A stretch of 47,191 nt of DNA from Polyangia bacterium (GTDB taxonomy: Bacteria > Myxococcota_A > Polyangia > Polyangiales > Sandaracinaceae), in the NCBI GenBank assembly GCA_030426845.1, contig JAUHXR010000027.1:1-47191 (forward strand). The letters run 5' to 3'. This document shows positions 7,314 through 15,297 of this stretch, in pieces; the stretch's first letter is position 1, and every line of letters starts with the position of its first letter. Below the pieces are notes generated by a model, which saw nothing but the letters and a program-made list of their open reading frames with translations, had not been told where the DNA came from and made no database searches. Both the position numbers and the translations under genes were made by a program.

Positions 7314-7739
7314 TTGTACTCGGTCGAGGTTCACGCTCCGCGGCTCGTGCTCGTCACGCTCGCGCCGCCGGTCGACGTCGACGTCGCGAAGGCCGCTACG
7401 GTCGAGATCCGCGCGGCGATCGTGGGCCACGCCCCGACCCCGAGCCTGCTCTGCACCGACGTGCGCTCCGCGTCCGCGTGGCCGCCGGCCGTCGGGGACG
7501 TGTTCCTCCAGATGATGCGCGCCGACAACCCGATGCTCGCGTTCAACGGCATCGTGTACACCCCCGGCGGCTCGATGGGCCTGCAGCTCGCTCGGCTGAT
7601 CCGCGAGGCCGGCCGCCCCGACCGCCGCTACGCGAGCGGCGACCCGGCCGACGTGCTCGCGCGCTACGAGCCTCACGCCACCCACGAGGAGATCGCGCTC
7701 GTGCGGAGCTTCCTCGATCGCGCGACGGTCGCGCGCTGA
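7314..7739 (+). CDS. Small conserved-looking protein of unknown function
   Basis: Product of 141 residues, soluble, with no signal peptide. It begins with a beta-rich segment (YSVEVHAPRLVLVTLAPPVD) and alternates strands and helices, giving a faint resemblance to STAS/SpoIIAA-type regulatory folds; I would not assign it on that alone. The TTG at 7314 is chosen because GAGGGGGGA precedes it at ribosome-binding distance; an in-frame GTG at 7290 is the alternative. Its TGA overlaps the ATG of the DUF2071 gene by one base, so the two are almost surely co-translated and may work together. Confidence 0.6.
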   Translation: MYSVEVHAPRLVLVTLAPPVDVDVAKAATVEIRAAIVGHAPTPSLLCTDVRSASAWPPAVGDVFLQMMRADNPMLAFNGIVYTPGGSMGLQLARLIREAGRPDRRYASGDPADVLARYEPHATHEEIALVRSFLDRATVAR

Positions 7740-8485
7740 TGGCCGTGATCGACCGCGTCGGCCCGACCCGCGCGCCCGAGGTGCCGGAGGCGGGCACCCA
7801 GTCCTGGCGCGAGCTGCTGTTCGTCCACTGGACCGTGCCCGAGGAGGCGCTCCGGCGGGTCGTGCCCGCGCCGCTCGCGCTCGACGCGTGGGAGGGTCGC
7901 TGCCTCGTCGGGGCGGTGCCCTTCAAGATGCGCCGCATCCGGACCGCGTGGATGCCGCGGGCCACGGGGCTCGACTTCCTCGAGACCAACCTCCGCACCT
8001 ACGTCACCTACCGCGACCGGCCCGGCGTCTACTTCTTCTCGCTCGAGGCCTCGAGCTGGCTCGCGGTCCAGGTCGCGCGCGCGGTCTGGAGGCTCCCCTA
8101 CTTCCACGCGGAGATGAGCGCCTCCGAGGAGGGAGGCGTCCACTCCTACGCGAGCGCGCGTCGCGCCGACCGCCGCGGCCTCCGGGCCCGCTTCCGGGTG
8201 GGCGAGGCGCTCGGCCCCTCGGCCCCCGGTACGCTCGAGCACTTCCTGCTGGAGCGCTACCTGCTCTTCTCGATGCGCGGCGAGACGGTGCTCGAGGGGC
8301 GGGTCCACCACGCGCCCTACCCCGCGCACCACGCCGAGGTGCTCTCGCTCGAAGAGGACCTCCTCGAGGCGGCGGGGCTGCCGTCCCCGGGCCGGCCTCC
8401 GGAGCTCGCCCACTACAGCCCCGGGGTGGACGTGCGGGTGTTCGGGCCCTGGCCGGCCGACGCGCTGCCTCCCGGCGCGCGCTGA
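7739..8485 (+). CDS. DUF2071 (YqjF-like) family protein
   Basis: Product of 248 residues of the DUF2071/YqjF family, soluble and of unknown biochemical role. The family opening is visible: WRELLFVHWTVPEEALRRVV followed by P-x-P-L and a GxxLVGAVPFKM-like segment. The central WLAVQVARAVWRLPYFHAEM and a late RVHHAPYPAHHAEV segment also fit. The length matches the family. Translation is coupled to the preceding 141-residue protein through a TGATG overlap. The closest known members are cytoplasmic and often lie beside stress genes; nothing here points to a particular stress. Confidence 0.8.
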   Translation: MAVIDRVGPTRAPEVPEAGTQSWRELLFVHWTVPEEALRRVVPAPLALDAWEGRCLVGAVPFKMRRIRTAWMPRATGLDFLETNLRTYVTYRDRPGVYFFSLEASSWLAVQVARAVWRLPYFHAEMSASEEGGVHSYASARRADRRGLRARFRVGEALGPSAPGTLEHFLLERYLLFSMRGETVLEGRVHHAPYPAHHAEVLSLEEDLLEAAGLPSPGRPPELAHYSPGVDVRVFGPWPADALPPGAR

Positions 8486-8542
8486 TCCGTGCCACGGGGC
8501 GGCGCTTCCACTACCATGAGCCGTCGTCCGGGAGGTGTGGGA

Positions 8543-11197
8543 GTGAGGTTTCTTCGCGCGTGCGCCGCGTGGCTCGTGGTCGCTGCGGCGGCGTCGGGCT
8601 GCGACAGCGACATCGTCGTCCCGCTCGACGGATCGGTCGACGCGGGCGTCCCGATCGACGCGATCGACGCCGACACCGTCGCGCCGATGAGCGTCCGGGC
8701 CGGGCAGCCGCTCGCCCTCTCCTGCGTGCTCATCGACCGCAGCGGCGAGGAGATCGCGCCGCCGGCCGGGCTCCCGGTGAGCTACCGCTTCGTGCCCGAG
8801 GACTCGGCGATCCAGCTCGAGGACGGCTCGTGGGCCGCGACCCAGGTCGGCCGGCTCGAGGTCGCGTGCGTGTTCCCGACCCTGCGGCTGACCGACGCGA
8901 CGCCCGCGGTGGTCGAGGTCCTCCCGGGCGACCCCGCCTACGTCGTCACCAGCCTCGACCTCGACTCGATCGAGGCGGGCGAGCTCGTCGACGTGACGTG
9001 CGACGTCTACGACGCCTACGGCAACCGCGTCGACGACGCCGAGCCCACCGTGCGCGCGGAGCCGGCCGAGGACGTGAACACCTTCGACGGCCTCACCGGC
9101 CGCTTCGAGCGCGCCGGGAGCTTCGATCTGCACTGCGAGGTCCCGGGCGCGGTGAGCCGACCCGCGGTGCTCGAGGTGCGGCCCGGTCTGCCGGCCTCCC
9201 TCGTCTTGTCCCGCGTCCCCTTCCAGGAGATCTACGCGCGCGGTCAGGTCGTCGACGTCCAGCGCCTCATCGCCGACCGCTTCGGCAACCCGGTGCCCGA
9301 CGCCCAGGCGCCCACGACCAGCGCGCCGGCCGGCCAGCAGCTCGGGGACGGCCGCTGGCGCTACGACAACGACGGCCGCTACCTCGTCACCGCGACCGTC
9401 GTCGGGCCCACGCAAGACGACGTGCCCTTGTCGCGCTCGACCGTGATCCTCGTGGACGGGAACGGCCCGGCGATCTCGTGTGACGAGCCGCTCAACGGGG
9501 CGATCCTCGACCGGGCCCCCGGCGCGCCGCTGACCTTCCGCGGCTCGGTGAGCGACCTGTCGGGCATCGCCGAGGTGCGGGTCAACGGCGCCCCCGTCGC
9601 GGTGAACGCGGTGGGCCTCTTCGAGGCCGAGGTGCCCACCCAGTACGGCATCAATTTCGTCGACCTGGCGGCGGTGGACGGCACCGGCCGGGAGGCGAGC
9701 CGGACCTGCGCGTTCCTCGTCGCCGAGCGCTGGGCCCCGGACACCTCGACCTTCTCCGACACGCTCTCGCTCCGGCTGCGCCAGGACGCGTGGGACGACG
9801 GCAGCCGGGCGGGCGCGATCGACTCGCTCGCCGACGTCCTGCACACGATCCTCAACAGCCGCGGCCTGCGCAACCAGCTCCACACCTCGCTGTCGGCGAG
9901 CCCGACCCTCAAGCCGAGCGGCTGCGACTCGCGGGTGCTCGGGGTCTGCGTGCTGCGGAGCCGCGTGCGCTACCAGGACCTCGAGATCCGCGGGCCCAAC
10001 GCGGTGACGCTCGATCTGGTGCCCAACGGGCTCGGCGCCTCGTTCCGCATCGAGAACCTCCGCATCCGCATCCGGGTGGACGGCCACGTGGCGGGCATCG
10101 GCTACGACACGAGCGGCTGGGTGACCTTCCGCAACGTCGACGTCGGGCTGATCTTCAACACGCGCCTCAGCGGCGGCCGGCCCCAGATCAGCGTGCGCGC
10201 CGGCTCGGTCAGCACGACGGTCGGCAGCGTCTCGACGAGCTTCTCCGGCCTGAGCGGGTCGATCATCAACATCATCGTCCGCCTCTTCAACGGCACCGTC
10301 CGCAACCTCGTGGCCGGCCTCGTGCGCGACTTCGTCACCGGCAACCTCAACTCGGTCCTCGACGGGCTCGTCGGGAGCCTCGACATCAGCTCGCTCGGCA
10401 CCAGCTTCGACGTGCCGCGTCTCGACGGCCCCGAGACGATCCCGCTCAGCTTCGGGGTCGGCTTCTCGAGCCTCGACGTCTCCGACACGCGCGCGCTCTT
10501 CGGGATCGGGACGCGCTTCTTCACCCCGGCCGCGCACGCCCGCCCGACCCTCGGCGCGCCGGTGCGCACCGGGCGGCGGGTCCTCGACGCGGGCGGCGCC
10601 GGGACGACCGCGGTGGCGGTCCACGAGGCGGTGCTCAACCAGGCGCTCCACGCGCTCTGGCGCGGCGGGTTCTTCGACGCGACGATCGACGGCTCGACCC
10701 TCGGCGGCAGCGTGCCGGCGGGCGTGGAGGCGGACCTCGCCATCCAGCTCCCGCCGGTCGCGGTGGTGACCAACCAGGGCAGCCGGGTCGAGCTCACGCT
10801 CGGCGCGGCGAGCCTCCGGCTGCTCTACCCGGCGCTCTTCTCGCAGCCCGTCAACCTGTCGCTCGGCGTGCGCGCGTCGATGGCGGCTCGCCTCGTGGGC
10901 GACGACCTGGTGTTCGACGACTTCCGCATCGAGGACCTCTTCTTCAGCACCGACCAGGTGAGCCTCGACATGAGCACCCGCGACACCGTCGAGGGCTTCC
11001 TCCGGCGGCTCCTCGAGCGGGTCATGGGCCCCGCGCTGAACGACGCGCTGCCCGCGATCCCCATCCCGAGCTTCACCCTGCCCGCGTCGCTCGCGGTCTA
11101 CGGCCTGCCGGCTGGCGCCCAGCTCGGCATCACCTCGCCGAACATGTCGATCGAGTCGCCGCACATCGTGCTGCGCGGAGGCTTCGCGATCCGATGA
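8543..11197 (+). CDS. Large lipoprotein: Ig-like repeats plus BPI/LBP (TULIP)-like lipid-binding halves
   Basis: Predicted envelope lipoprotein of 884 residues. The signal ends AAASGC (Cys20, Asp at +2). Residues about 45-305 form beta-rich Ig-like repeats, and about 308-395 a further Ig-like domain with a GSVSDLSGIAEVRVNG motif. Residues about 396-884 follow the order of BPI/LBP/CETP proteins: a beta barrel with helix SIINIIVRLFNGTVRNLVAG, a long middle strand set, a second half opening with LNQALHALWRGGFFDATI, a LRLLYPALF strand, and a C-terminal tail LNDALPAIPIPSF that recalls the BPI ending. This is read by eye, so it is an inference. A GGAGG site 7 bases upstream decides GTG 8543 over ATG 8516. 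The stop overlaps the next gene by 4 bp. Confidence 0.7.
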   Translation: MRFLRACAAWLVVAAAASGCDSDIVVPLDGSVDAGVPIDAIDADTVAPMSVRAGQPLALSCVLIDRSGEEIAPPAGLPVSYRFVPEDSAIQLEDGSWAATQVGRLEVACVFPTLRLTDATPAVVEVLPGDPAYVVTSLDLDSIEAGELVDVTCDVYDAYGNRVDDAEPTVRAEPAEDVNTFDGLTGRFERAGSFDLHCEVPGAVSRPAVLEVRPGLPASLVLSRVPFQEIYARGQVVDVQRLIADRFGNPVPDAQAPTTSAPAGQQLGDGRWRYDNDGRYLVTATVVGPTQDDVPLSRSTVILVDGNGPAISCDEPLNGAILDRAPGAPLTFRGSVSDLSGIAEVRVNGAPVAVNAVGLFEAEVPTQYGINFVDLAAVDGTGREASRTCAFLVAERWAPDTSTFSDTLSLRLRQDAWDDGSRAGAIDSLADVLHTILNSRGLRNQLHTSLSASPTLKPSGCDSRVLGVCVLRSRVRYQDLEIRGPNAVTLDLVPNGLGASFRIENLRIRIRVDGHVAGIGYDTSGWVTFRNVDVGLIFNTRLSGGRPQISVRAGSVSTTVGSVSTSFSGLSGSIINIIVRLFNGTVRNLVAGLVRDFVTGNLNSVLDGLVGSLDISSLGTSFDVPRLDGPETIPLSFGVGFSSLDVSDTRALFGIGTRFFTPAAHARPTLGAPVRTGRRVLDAGGAGTTAVAVHEAVLNQALHALWRGGFFDATIDGSTLGGSVPAGVEADLAIQLPPVAVVTNQGSRVELTLGAASLRLLYPALFSQPVNLSLGVRASMAARLVGDDLVFDDFRIEDLFFSTDQVSLDMSTRDTVEGFLRRLLERVMGPALNDALPAIPIPSFTLPASLAVYGLPAGAQLGITSPNMSIESPHIVLRGGFAIR

Positions 11198-13293
11198 GGG
11201 CGTGGACTCGCGTGAGCGTCGCGCTCCTCGCGCTCGGGCTGGCTGCCTGCGACGGCAGCCCCGAGCCGGCGTCGATCGTGCTGCAGATCAACCCGAGCCG
11301 GACCTGGTACCACACCGACCAGACGGTCCAGGTGAACGCGGTCGTCGCCTCGATCGACGGCGAGGACATCGAGGACGTCGAGATCGCGTGGACGTTCACC
11401 CCCGCCGGCGCCCTGACCCAGGGCGCGCCGCAGATGGATCCGCGGGTCGCGCAGTTCACCCTCGAGCGCCAGGGCACGGCCGAGATCACCGGCTGCGTGG
11501 TGGAGGAGCCGAGCGACGACCCGGAGTGGGAGCCGCTCTGCGACACGCTGCTGCTGCGGATCGACGACGGGATGCCGACCCTCGAGGTGACGAGCCCGGT
11601 GCCGGGCGACCAGCTCGACGGTGACCCGACGATCGCGGTGACCGGCTCGGTGGCCGACCAGGACATGGTCAACGTCTACATCAACGGCGTCCCGGCGACG
11701 GTCGACGCGATGGGTGCGTTCAGCGGCGAGATCGACGCGCGTTTCGGGGTGAACCACCTCGTGGTCAGCGCGACCGACGGCCTGACCGACGTCACCGAGG
11801 TCGAGATGGACGTGCTCTGGGCGCCCGCCTACACCCCGGCGATCGGGGCCGACGGCACGCCCGAGGTGCAGGTCGACGACGGCCTGCGCCTGTGGCTCGG
11901 GCAGGAGTTCTTCGACGACTCGATGCCCCTCGAGCCGACCGCGCGGCCGCTGGTCACCCGCGACCTCGCCGACGTCCTCGAGCTGGTGATCGCCAACCTC
12001 GACGTGCAGTCGCTGGTGCCGAGCCCGGTCGTCGACAGCCCGCCCAGCTTCGTCCTCAACGTCAGCAACACCCGCATCGGAGCGCCGACCGCGGAGCTCG
12101 ACGTGACCGACGACGGCGTCGACCTGTTCCTGCGCATCGGCGAGATCCAGGCCGACACCTCGGGCTTCCTGATGGTGGACACGGTGAGCCTGCCCCTCAC
12201 CGGTCAGATCCGGGCCGGCGCGGTCGCCTACGCGCACCTCACGATCCGCAAGGACGACGTCGACGCGCCGCTCGAGGTGACCCTCGGCGAGCTGACGGTA
12301 GGGCTCGAGCGCGTCGAGGGCGACTTCGTGAGCGACGAGACCGACGCGGTGTTCCTCCTCGCGGCGGGGCTGTTCCGGACGACCCTCGAGCAGGCCCTCG
12401 TCGACGCCCTGAGCGGCACGCTCGACGAGACCATCCCGATGGTGCTGCGCGACGCGTTCGGCGCGATCGACACCGCACTCGCCGACACGCAGATCCCCCT
12501 CGACAGCGCGCCGTTCCCGCCCGTCACGATCGAGCTCGACGGCCGCATCAGCCAGCTCCGCGCCGCCTACCGCCGCGAGCTGCTGGCGGGCCTGCGCCTC
12601 CGGGTCGGGACCGACACCGCCTCGATCCACCCGGACGCGCCCGGTGTGCCGCTCTACGACGTGCGCCCGCCGCTGCCCTTCGTGAACGAGGGGAGCCTCC
12701 AGCTCGGAGTGCGCCTCGCGCTCCTCAACGCGCTCCTGCAGACGCTGTGGAGCTCGGGCCTGCTCGAGGTCGACGCGACGGCGCTGCTCCCCGACGCGGT
12801 CTCGGGCCTGGTGAGCGAGGCGCGCATCGTGGGCCGCCTCCCGCCGGTGATCCGGCCGGCGCGCGAAGACGAGGAGGACGACCTCGTGCTCAGCGTCGGC
12901 CAGCTCGAGCTCGACCTGCTCTTCCAGGGCGAGATGGTCCGCTTCGCGGTGAGCCTCGACGCGGGGGTCAACCTCGAGGTGCGCGACAACGCGGTGTCGG
13001 TCCAGGTCTCGGAGACGCCGGTCCTGCGCGTCTGGACCCTGGTGCCGCCGTCGAACGAGCGGCTGCTGTCGGCGTCGACGATCGAGACGCTGCTCCTCGA
13101 GCTCTGGCCGACCCTGCGCGAGGCGGTGGCCGGCGGGCTCGCGATCGACCTGCCCATCCCGAGCCTCGGCGACCTCGGCGGGCTCTCGCCGGAGCTGGCC
13201 GGGCTCTCGCTCTCGCTCTCGATGACCGACCGCGTGCGTCCGCGCCGCGGGGTGCTCGAGCTCGAGGCTCAGCTCACCGGCCAGCTGCCCTGA
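11194..13293 (+). CDS. Second BPI/LBP (TULIP)-like lipoprotein, paralogue of the upstream gene
   Basis: Predicted lipoprotein of 699 residues (signal ending LGLAAC, Cys19, Asp at +2). An N-terminal beta domain (about 22-120) is followed by an Ig-like domain (about 126-205; ITVTGS-type fold with VNVYINGVPATVDAMGAF), then a region equivalent to the BPI-like part of its neighbour. Shared landmarks are LALLNALLQTLWSSGLLEV (about residue 510) and a C-terminal helix plus IDLPIPSLGDL. It has fewer Ig-like repeats than the first protein. The ATG overlaps the upstream TGA (ATGA), so the pair is translationally coupled and probably forms a complex or relay for a lipid or other hydrophobic ligand. The ligand is unknown. 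It ends 15 bp from a convergent gene. Confidence 0.68.
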   Translation: MRAWTRVSVALLALGLAACDGSPEPASIVLQINPSRTWYHTDQTVQVNAVVASIDGEDIEDVEIAWTFTPAGALTQGAPQMDPRVAQFTLERQGTAEITGCVVEEPSDDPEWEPLCDTLLLRIDDGMPTLEVTSPVPGDQLDGDPTIAVTGSVADQDMVNVYINGVPATVDAMGAFSGEIDARFGVNHLVVSATDGLTDVTEVEMDVLWAPAYTPAIGADGTPEVQVDDGLRLWLGQEFFDDSMPLEPTARPLVTRDLADVLELVIANLDVQSLVPSPVVDSPPSFVLNVSNTRIGAPTAELDVTDDGVDLFLRIGEIQADTSGFLMVDTVSLPLTGQIRAGAVAYAHLTIRKDDVDAPLEVTLGELTVGLERVEGDFVSDETDAVFLLAAGLFRTTLEQALVDALSGTLDETIPMVLRDAFGAIDTALADTQIPLDSAPFPPVTIELDGRISQLRAAYRRELLAGLRLRVGTDTASIHPDAPGVPLYDVRPPLPFVNEGSLQLGVRLALLNALLQTLWSSGLLEVDATALLPDAVSGLVSEARIVGRLPPVIRPAREDEEDDLVLSVGQLELDLLFQGEMVRFAVSLDAGVNLEVRDNAVSVQVSETPVLRVWTLVPPSNERLLSASTIETLLLELWPTLREAVAGGLAIDLPIPSLGDLGGLSPELAGLSLSLSMTDRVRPRRGVLELEAQLTGQLP

Positions 13294-13812: not shown

Positions 13813-15297
13813 TCAGGGCGCCGGGCGGTCGGCCTGCCAGTCGCCGGTGAACTCGCGGCCGAGCAGGGTGCCGTCCCAGGTCCCCATGCGCATGGAGTTC
13901 GGCCCGGTGATCGGCGCGGCCCCGCGCAGGGTGATCGCGTCGGCGTCGACCCGCGCCGCGAGGAGCTCCATCAGCGCGCGGTTCACGAGGTTCTCGACCT
14001 GGGTCGTGCAGGTGCTGAAGACGGTGTCGCCAACCCCGGGGTGGTCGACGTTGGCCTCGGCGAAGTCGCCGAGCGCGCGGCAGAAGCCGGCGGAGGCGGC
14101 GGCGGCGGCGCTCCCGAGCGTGTCGTGCTCGCCGTCCGTGATCGCCCAGACGAGCGCGTCGACGACCCACGCGAGCACCGCGCCGATCGACACGTTCACG
14201 TCGTGGCGCTCGATGTGGAAGGTGCCGCAGACCGCCGAGGCGTTGAACGGCGAGGGGCTGAAGCGCCAGTTCCGGATCGTGTCGGGGCGCCCGACCAGCG
14301 GCATCGAGCGGTAGTAGAAGGTGATGCGGTCCCAGGTGTGGGTGCCGCGGTAGCTGTCCGCGACGGAGCCGTTGGTCAGGACCATCGTCTCCTCGACCTC
14401 CCAGGTGTTGAGCACCTGGTTCATGTCGGCGATCGCCCGGAACAGCGGGCGCGCCCACGCGGGGACGTGCATCTCGATGAGCGGCCGCACGAGGTCGCAG
14501 ATCTCGTTCTCCACCCAGGTCGGCAGGCCGAAGTCGATGCAGGCGGCGTCGCCCGCGAGGAAGCGGAACGGCTCCTCGACCGCCTCGAGGAAGCGGTCGA
14601 GCCAGGCCGGCAGCGCCTCGCGGATGCGGAGCGAGCTCTGCATGTCCCAGGTGCCCGCGAAGTCGGGGTGGCCGATGTCACAGACCGTCCCGTCGCGGCA
14701 GATCCCGCGGTCGCAGACCTCGCTCGCCGGGCACTCGGCGTCGGCCACGCAGGGCATCCCGCTGCCGGGCGGCGGCGTGCAGACGCCCTCCTCGCACACC
14801 AGGCCGCTCGGGCAGTCGGTGTTGTAGGTGCAGACGCAGGTCATCTCCGGCCCGCACGTCAGGCCGGCGTAGCAGTCGCCGTCGTCCATGCACGGGGTGG
14901 GCACGCGCGGGTCGGGCGTGCAGCGGCCGGCGATGCAGAGCTCGCCCGTCGCGCACTCGGCGTCGAACTCGCAGAACGCGCCCGACGACGAGGGCTGGAC
15001 GCAGACGCCGTCGCGGCACTCGCCGGGCGCCTCGCACGGGCTGCAGTCGGTGCCGTCGCCGGGGGGCGGCGGGTTCGGGTCGGCGACGCAGGTGGGCACG
15101 CCCTCGACCGCCGCGCAGACGAACCCCGGGCCGCAGCCCTCGTCGCTCGTGCAGCGGAAGACCTCCTCCGTGCCCGCGTCGCGGCCGGCCGCGTCCATCG
15201 TGCCGGCGTCGGTGGGGGAGCTCCCCGTCGCGTCGCAGCCGGAGGCGAGCCCCGAGACCAGAGAGCCGAGGACCAGGAGGCAGGCGAAGCGAGACAT
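13813..15297 (-). CDS. Cys-rich-repeat lipoprotein with a C-terminal domain of unknown fold
   Basis: Predicted surface lipoprotein of 494 residues. The signal ends GLASGC (Cys21, Asp at +2). A short spacer with three DAG-type units follows. Residues about 45-205 hold seven short disulphide modules of the CxxDxxCxxGxxC type (for example CEFDAECATGELC and CMDDGDCYAGLTC), as in many myxobacterial lipoproteins. Residues about 210-494 are a mixed helical/beta domain, beginning FAGTWDMQSSLRI, that I cannot place; it contains several Trp and paired Cys and ends in a repeat-like GTWDGTLLGREFTGDW. The start is decided by the signal and by a TAGCTT box 8 bases upstream. Confidence 0.78.
   Translation of the reverse strand: MSRFACLLVLGSLVSGLASGCDATGSSPTDAGTMDAAGRDAGTEEVFRCTSDEGCGPGFVCAAVEGVPTCVADPNPPPPGDGTDCSPCEAPGECRDGVCVQPSSSGAFCEFDAECATGELCIAGRCTPDPRVPTPCMDDGDCYAGLTCGPEMTCVCTYNTDCPSGLVCEEGVCTPPPGSGMPCVADAECPASEVCDRGICRDGTVCDIGHPDFAGTWDMQSSLRIREALPAWLDRFLEAVEEPFRFLAGDAACIDFGLPTWVENEICDLVRPLIEMHVPAWARPLFRAIADMNQVLNTWEVEETMVLTNGSVADSYRGTHTWDRITFYYRSMPLVGRPDTIRNWRFSPSPFNASAVCGTFHIERHDVNVSIGAVLAWVVDALVWAITDGEHDTLGSAAAAASAGFCRALGDFAEANVDHPGVGDTVFSTCTTQVENLVNRALMELLAARVDADAITLRGAAPITGPNSMRMGTWDGTLLGREFTGDWQADRPAP

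Follow-up and report, generated by a model that had tools for sequence, protein, structure and literature searches.

Two overlapping genes, designated A and B, in a 47,191-nucleotide stretch of DNA from a Polyangia bacterium (contig JAUHXR010000027.1; hereafter the window) were found to encode putative lipoproteins whose C-terminal regions of ~490 residues, unnamed by any curated model at its cut-off, are predicted to fold as two TULIP domains in the arrangement of BPI, a human blood protein that, like LBP and CETP, binds and carries lipids. We judge with a probability of roughly 55% that A and B constitute a pair of lipid-anchored envelope proteins which display a BPI-type double TULIP module, consisting of two tubular lipid-binding barrels set end to end, on Ig-like arms and carry lipid. 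Support was obtained for the presence of lipoboxes and arms, for the predicted BPI fold, for the homology of A and B, and for their overlapping or closely spaced genes and joint inheritance; the ligand, the location, and the binding and transfer of lipid by A and B are inferred, with no binding or transfer data at hand.

The overlapping gene pair, its lipoboxes and its arms

As summarized in Table 1, the description of an overlapping lipoprotein pair at 8543-13293, given in a first-pass annotation of this DNA, was borne out in that both ORFs were in place, the ATGA overlap was present, and each protein possessed a lipobox. The A frame opens with a GTG codon, and an in-frame ATG at 8516 offers an alternative start. 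The sharing of the ATGA by the stop codon of A and the start codon of B led us to infer translational coupling of the two genes. The coding signal was strong in both (GC3 0.98 with low GC2), indicating that the A and B frames are the coding frames. The two proteins proved to be homologous (BLASTP E 6e-23), and their resemblance is thus not due to chance; they are nevertheless divergent, being 19 percent identical in A1, a mixed alignment of 19 sequences that comprises A, B and other distant members. As for the flanking genes, a DUF2071/acetoacetate-decarboxylase-like gene at 7478-8485 on the same strand ends just upstream of A and is not a conserved neighbour in relatives, and a convergent gene downstream of B (13813-15297, minus strand) encodes a lipoprotein-like product with Cys-rich DUF7107/EB-like modules.

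Table 1. Features of the A-B locus (positions in the window).
Feature	Positions	Strand	Remarks
Gene A, putative lipoprotein: BPI-like region of two domains on a long Ig-like arm	8543..11197	+	884 aa from the GTG start
Lipobox ASGC of A	8591..8602	+	Cys20 predicted lipidation site; Asp at +2
Ig-like arm of A	8603..9715	+	~373 residues
Ig-like module of A, Pfam PF09136 Glucodextran_B	9467..9709	+	E 8.4e-7, above cut-off
Predicted TULIP N half of A	9716..10429	+	family profile (LBP 3.1e-9), model
Long helix in TULIP N half of A	10256..10375	+	model residues 181-220
Predicted TULIP C half of A	10430..11194	+	invariant Asn (codon 10637-10639), LPAIPIPSF tail
ATGA overlap, A stop/B start	11194..11197	+	short spacing kept in relatives
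Gene B, putative lipoprotein: BPI-like region of two domains on a short Ig-like arm	11194..13293	+	699 aa
Lipobox LAAC of B	11239..11250	+	Cys19; Asp at +2
Ig-like arm of B	11251..11814	+	~190 residues
Ig-like module of B, Pfam PF09136 Glucodextran_B	11575..11781	+	E 2.3e-9, above cut-off
Predicted TULIP N half of B	11815..12516	+	strongly acidic
Long helix in TULIP N half of B	12370..12474	+	model residues 186-220
Predicted TULIP C half of B	12517..13290	+	invariant Asn (codon 12727-12729)

A motif scan detected a signal peptide followed by a lipobox in both proteins (ASGC at residues 17-20 of A and LAAC at residues 16-19 of B), and a lipobox was likewise present in nearly all complete family members, the lipidation itself being inferred. 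Just before the C-terminal region, Pfam identified a Glucodextran_B Ig-like module in each protein (residues 309-389 of A, E 8e-7; residues 128-196 of B, E 2e-9), and the remaining Ig-like repeats of the arms were visible in the sequence only. The arm length, taken as the distance from the lipidated Cys to the start of the TULIP region, was mostly 370-440 residues in A-type proteins (373 in the window) and mostly 180-240 residues in B-type proteins (190 in the window), with the exception of one lineage including Kofleriaceae, in which the B arms measured ~96-110 residues.

Placement of A and B in the outer membrane can be inferred only weakly, because the +2 rule of E. coli, under which Asp at this position leads to inner-membrane retention, would keep such proteins in the inner membrane. 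Both A and B have Asp at +2, and neither has Lys at +2 or Ala at +7, which in lipoprotein sorting of Myxococcus xanthus are associated with the inner membrane and the extracellular matrix, respectively (PMC3222651).

Predicted fold and sequence relation to BPI and LBP

Template-free AlphaFold2 models of the C-terminal regions were built from A1 (19 relatives) for A and from alignment A3 (28 B sequences) for B, with mean pLDDT values of 86.7 and 88.5, respectively, and a pTM of 0.81 in either case. In a Foldseek search, the top PDB match was human BPI for both A (6e-22) and B (6e-18), followed by CETP and LBP. VIA-align superimposed the A model on BPI over 420 residues at 4.6 A (Z 21.9) and the B model over 411 residues at 3.3 A (Z 23.0), which corresponds to essentially the entire BPI chain; BPI residues 1-456 were covered by both models, which are predicted and not experimental structures. 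The Z values were 18.9 (A) and 17.9 (B) for CETP and 18.6 (A) and 20.3 (B) for LBP, and then dropped clearly, with none of the single-domain TULIPs, P47 or YceB exceeding ~11. Since the non-TULIP protein Aha1 reached Z 9.7, a Z near 10 means little alone, and values above 18 are well clear of it. Each half of either model contains a long helix among long strands (residues 181-220 and 419-442 in A; 186-220 and 420-441 in B), in agreement with the long helix and curved antiparallel sheet expected of a TULIP domain. The BPI-like halves that the first-pass annotation had recognized by eye were thus recovered as two TULIP barrels in both regions, with BPI matched in full length and YceB far more weakly, and the motifs quoted for them were all located, namely SIINIIVRLFNGTVRNLVAG at residue 573, LNQALHALWRGGFF at residue 698, LRLLYPALF at residue 758 and LPAIPIPSF at residue 836 of A, and LLNALLQTLWSSGLL at residue 510 of B. 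On the strength of these models, the assignment of both C-terminal regions as two TULIP domains in the BPI arrangement is supported.

The AlphaFold2 network was trained on the PDB, and the alignments supplied to it were small, with only 19 and 28 sequences, so that one might ask whether the network merely remembered BPI and the sequence match arose by chance. Such an artefact appears barely credible to us: the HMMER profile, single-sequence and Pfam matches described below are independent of AlphaFold2 and indicate the same family, the N half aligns in register with the N domain of BPI, and two proteins as divergent as A and B gave the same answer.

A search of the complete set of PDB sequences with the A1 profile, at E values up to 10, returned three chains only, LBP at 3.1e-9 and BPI at 5e-7 and 6.8e-7, so that the anticipated profile match to TULIP families was obtained and nothing else. 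These alignments cover the TULIP N domain. A profile of A orthologues only gave LBP at 0.003, which is weak, and one of B orthologues only gave just BPI at E 1.2, which is not significant; the strong value of 3e-9 therefore depends on the mixed alignment with its distant members. A single relative (L040) on its own reached LBP at 5.8e-5, and PDB searches with the window proteins individually returned no match for one and noise only for the other.

With the Pfam LBP_BPI_CETP models, to which a profile match had been expected, relatives scored above the cut-off whereas the window proteins remained below it. PF01273 matched 5 of the 19 A1 members (best 1.2e-7), and of 237 Myxococcota genomes, 15 had a match above its cut-off; the cut-off of the C-terminal model PF02886 was passed by two ORFs from one genome, both distant relatives. 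All fetched ORFs behind these matches also matched the A1 family profile. Window A scored 12.9-14.7 bits against a PF01273 cut-off of 28.8, window B gave no PF01273 match, and PF02886 matched neither. A PF01273 search of the host genome at E 0.001 was empty, and the BPI-like family is thus visible only with relatives. A profile of the C half found no PDB chain, and PF02886 reached at best 0.03, in two members of alignment A6. Accordingly graded, the homology of the N half to LBP and BPI is well supported for the family as a whole by profile comparison, and the case for the C half rests on the predicted structure and the two PF02886 relatives. Comparison of the N half with the C half by hhalign yielded a match of only 23 columns (51.7 percent), and hence an internal duplication is not demonstrated by the sequences.

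The TULIP region of B has no Cys, which rules out a BPI-type disulphide in this protein, and the only two Cys in that of A, TULIP residues 70 and 78, are separated by 8 positions. Judging from these positions, the conserved N-domain disulphide of BPI (Cys135-Cys175) is not conserved in A or B. The lipopolysaccharide-binding N end of BPI is basic. The net charge of the N half is +3 in A and -29 in B, mostly negative across the family, and between -12 and -61 in B-type proteins; by this measure, the strongly basic N domain of BPI and LBP is absent in A and B.

Occurrence of the family and comparison with known TULIP proteins

Matches to the A1 profile were obtained in 174 of the 284 Myxococcota genomes sampled, a scan that scored no more than five candidates in each genome, so that copy numbers are lower bounds. 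A scan of 84,980 species with two peptide patterns confirmed 35 loci, whose names fell in Myxococcota or former Deltaproteobacteria or were unspecific titles; as this was the only scan beyond Myxococcota, absence in other phyla is not shown. The diverse A1 alignment contained no stretch conserved enough to serve as a scan pattern, a first contig scan with B alone found no relative, and no family match was found in plasmid records. The 9.4-Mb host genome gave nine family-profile matches over eight contigs, some of them partial, the family being duplicated and diverse within it. The host most likely belongs to Sandaracinaceae in the phylum Myxococcota, as the A and B ORFs of a genome from its own family (G141) equal those of a named Sandaracinaceae record (L080) in length and nearly so in profile score.

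A B-type gene came next after the A-type gene on the same strand in 32 of the 35 named loci (some B genes being cut by the contig end). The other three (L095, L109 and L110) carried an A-type gene without a following B-type gene, a similarly sized gene occupying that place in L095 and L109. In a tree of 64 regions, B formed one clade (100/100) and all A rows fell in another (100/100), which also held four paralogues from the host genome and a same-family genome; the A and B profiles were related at 99.6 percent probability. The clean separation of the clades together with the pairing indicates that the A/B duplication predates the split of the sampled lineages and that the pair travelled together.

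Some irregularities were observed among family members. In-frame 18-base tandem repeats coding VAPDMI occur in four paralogues, three in the host genome (L037:9327-9420, L038:11860-11944 and L039:9879-9971) and one in the relative L043, all at one corresponding position of the TULIP C half that follows the conserved N..LH..W segment. Near the predicted start of the VAPDMI-bearing paralogue of L038, 15-base tandem repeats code LTNPV-like units (L038:13289-13448). One in-frame stop each was present in the family matches G015:C215, G033:C40 and G049:C2, from three genomes of one family (f11), and these may be split genes, sequencing errors or loose match ends.

With BPI, LBP, CETP and PLTP (PF01273 + PF02886; 1bp1, 1ewf, 4m4d, 2obd), A and B share two TULIP domains per chain, matched in full length (Z 18-23), the N-half sequence similarity seen with the family profile, and a long helix per half. 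Unlike these eukaryotic proteins, A and B are predicted to be lipid-anchored on Ig-like arms rather than freely secreted and are encoded as a tandem gene pair; furthermore, the N half is mostly acidic in the family, B is devoid of TULIP cysteines, and the window proteins lie below the Pfam cut-offs. The clostridial proteins P47, OrfX2 and OrfX3 are, like A and B, bacterial TULIP proteins and matched them at Z ~7-11 over much of the chain, but this structural match is far weaker than that of BPI and the gene context differs; we know of no lipoprotein anchor or Ig-like arm in these proteins, nor of a tandem partner for YceB. The latter (DUF1439; 3l6i, E. coli) resembles A and B in combining a bacterial TULIP with a lipoprotein anchor (Z 10.6 against the C half of A), but has one TULIP domain and, in place of the Ig-like arm, a short spacer (PMC5507252). 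Pfam found no DUF1439 match in A or B, which have two TULIP domains, not one.

The statement in the first-pass annotation that bacterial TULIP members are much simpler could not be maintained for all of them. The 2019 survey of bacterial TULIPs covered P47, OrfX2, YceB, DUF4403, DUF2140 and DUF2993 (PMC6791001), and DUF4403 was predicted therein to be a full-length, pseudo-dimeric BPI homologue (Levine 2019, PMC6791001), so that a two-domain bacterial TULIP is not new in principle; the match of P47 to much of the chain likewise contradicts the statement. The best eukaryotic-bacterial TULIP link in that survey, obtained for DUF4403 by remote profile methods, had a probability of 63 percent (PMC6791001).

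DUF4403 (PF14356), a bacterial family of ~460 residues that also occurs in other Myxococcota genomes, has the same plan of two TULIP domains per polypeptide with a BPI-like interface (PMC6791001), and A and B might on this ground be taken for members of it. This assignment, which we regard as very unlikely, is already contradicted at the sequence level: a Pfam search with E allowed up to 10 did not detect PF14356 in either protein, the profile-profile probability by hhalign was 1 percent, and the host genome gave no PF14356 match. Of 113 genomes sampled, 23 had DUF4403, whereas none was detected in the host genome, which has nine BPI-like family matches. In a like-for-like control, a same-phylum DUF4403 profile found no BPI or LBP in the PDB. 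There is thus no detectable sequence relation between the two families and no PDB match of DUF4403 to BPI by the equal method, and judged by this PDB profile test, the A/B family is nearer in sequence to eukaryotic BPI and LBP than DUF4403 is.

No description of the family was found in the literature searched, which was limited to open-access papers, and those members that exceed the Pfam cut-off are probably labelled LBP/BPI automatically in databases. What we consider new is the existence of BPI-type bacterial TULIPs with a lipid anchor, an Ig-like arm and a coupled partner, and an unusually strong sequence link between bacterial and eukaryotic proteins.

Possible roles of the pair and origin of the family

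A TULIP barrel encloses an apolar pocket able to carry lipid or a similar molecule (PMC5507252). If A and B are envelope lipid carriers, as we favor, they would sit in the outer membrane, the two pockets of each module would bind lipid or another hydrophobic molecule, and the bound molecule would be moved through the aqueous envelope space. The long arm of A and the short arm of B would hold the modules at two distances from the membrane, and the modules may act in series, with lipid passed between them, or at two surfaces or partners. Several observations do not favor lipid carriage: no gene neighbour beyond the A-B pair is conserved across the phylum, no recognised lipid-transport gene was found among the neighbours at the window locus, the Asp at +2 signifies inner-membrane retention under the E. 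coli rule, and three loci have A without B. Moreover, a lipid role is deduced from the fold, which by itself does not establish function.

The main rival to envelope carriage is lipid capture at the cell surface. In this case the arms would present the BPI-like modules to the exterior, where the modules would extract lipids or lipopolysaccharide from prey or from the environment in the manner of LBP in blood; surface proteins often bear Ig-like arms. We consider such capture unlikely, although it deserves to be kept in view, as the N halves are mostly acidic (-12 to -61 in B-type proteins) in contrast to the basic lipopolysaccharide-binding end of BPI. It would accord with the presence of the pair in Bradymonabacteria (Lujinxingia vulgaris, L105), predators that lack FabB/F and FabI/L, key enzymes of fatty-acid synthesis, and are thought to take fatty acids from their prey (PMC7460792). 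Neither A nor B, however, has the extracellular signal of M. xanthus, Ala at +7 (PMC3222651), and surface exposure is not shown.

More doubtful is a structural, adhesive or sensory role, in which the fold would have been kept and lipid carriage lost or made secondary, the modules serving envelope architecture or kinase signalling instead. A sensory role would fit the kinase-like gene that immediately precedes A in at least five Bradymonadales-like loci, where a single gene family occupies this position on the same strand (L100:2580-4601, L101:2756-4588, L102:2041-3846, L105:2516-4519 and L107:857-2650) and Ser/Thr kinase motifs were recognized in the L100 copy, the only one read; the duplication and diversity of the family within one genome would also be compatible with a structural or sensory role. 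Myxococcota are rich in such kinases, however, the kinase link is confined to one lineage, and the full double-TULIP layout is kept, both helices included, which speaks against a fold retained for structure or sensing alone.

Two-domain proteins of the BPI type are textbook eukaryotic lipid-binding proteins. Here, a bacterial family was linked to BPI and LBP by plain HMMER at E 3e-9 and through a single member at 6e-5, in addition to full-length structural matches, and through this link the origin of the BPI family becomes accessible to phylogenetic testing. It is conceivable, although we put it forward only as a speculation that is rather unlikely to hold in full, that the Myxococcota family is more closely related to eukaryotic BPI/LBP/CETP than any other bacterial family, that it derives from a bacterial stock ancestral to the eukaryotic family (or was the source of a gene transfer to eukaryotes), and that it served first as a coupled two-protein lipid relay of the envelope. 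With the direction of descent left open, the family offers a definite bacterial entry point to the question of how the animal BPI/LBP/CETP family originated, and it points to cultivated bacteria in which such a module may be tested in a Gram-negative envelope. It also presents an oddity: human relatives of the module bind or kill Gram-negative bacteria, and yet bacteria that are themselves Gram-negative maintain several copies of it.
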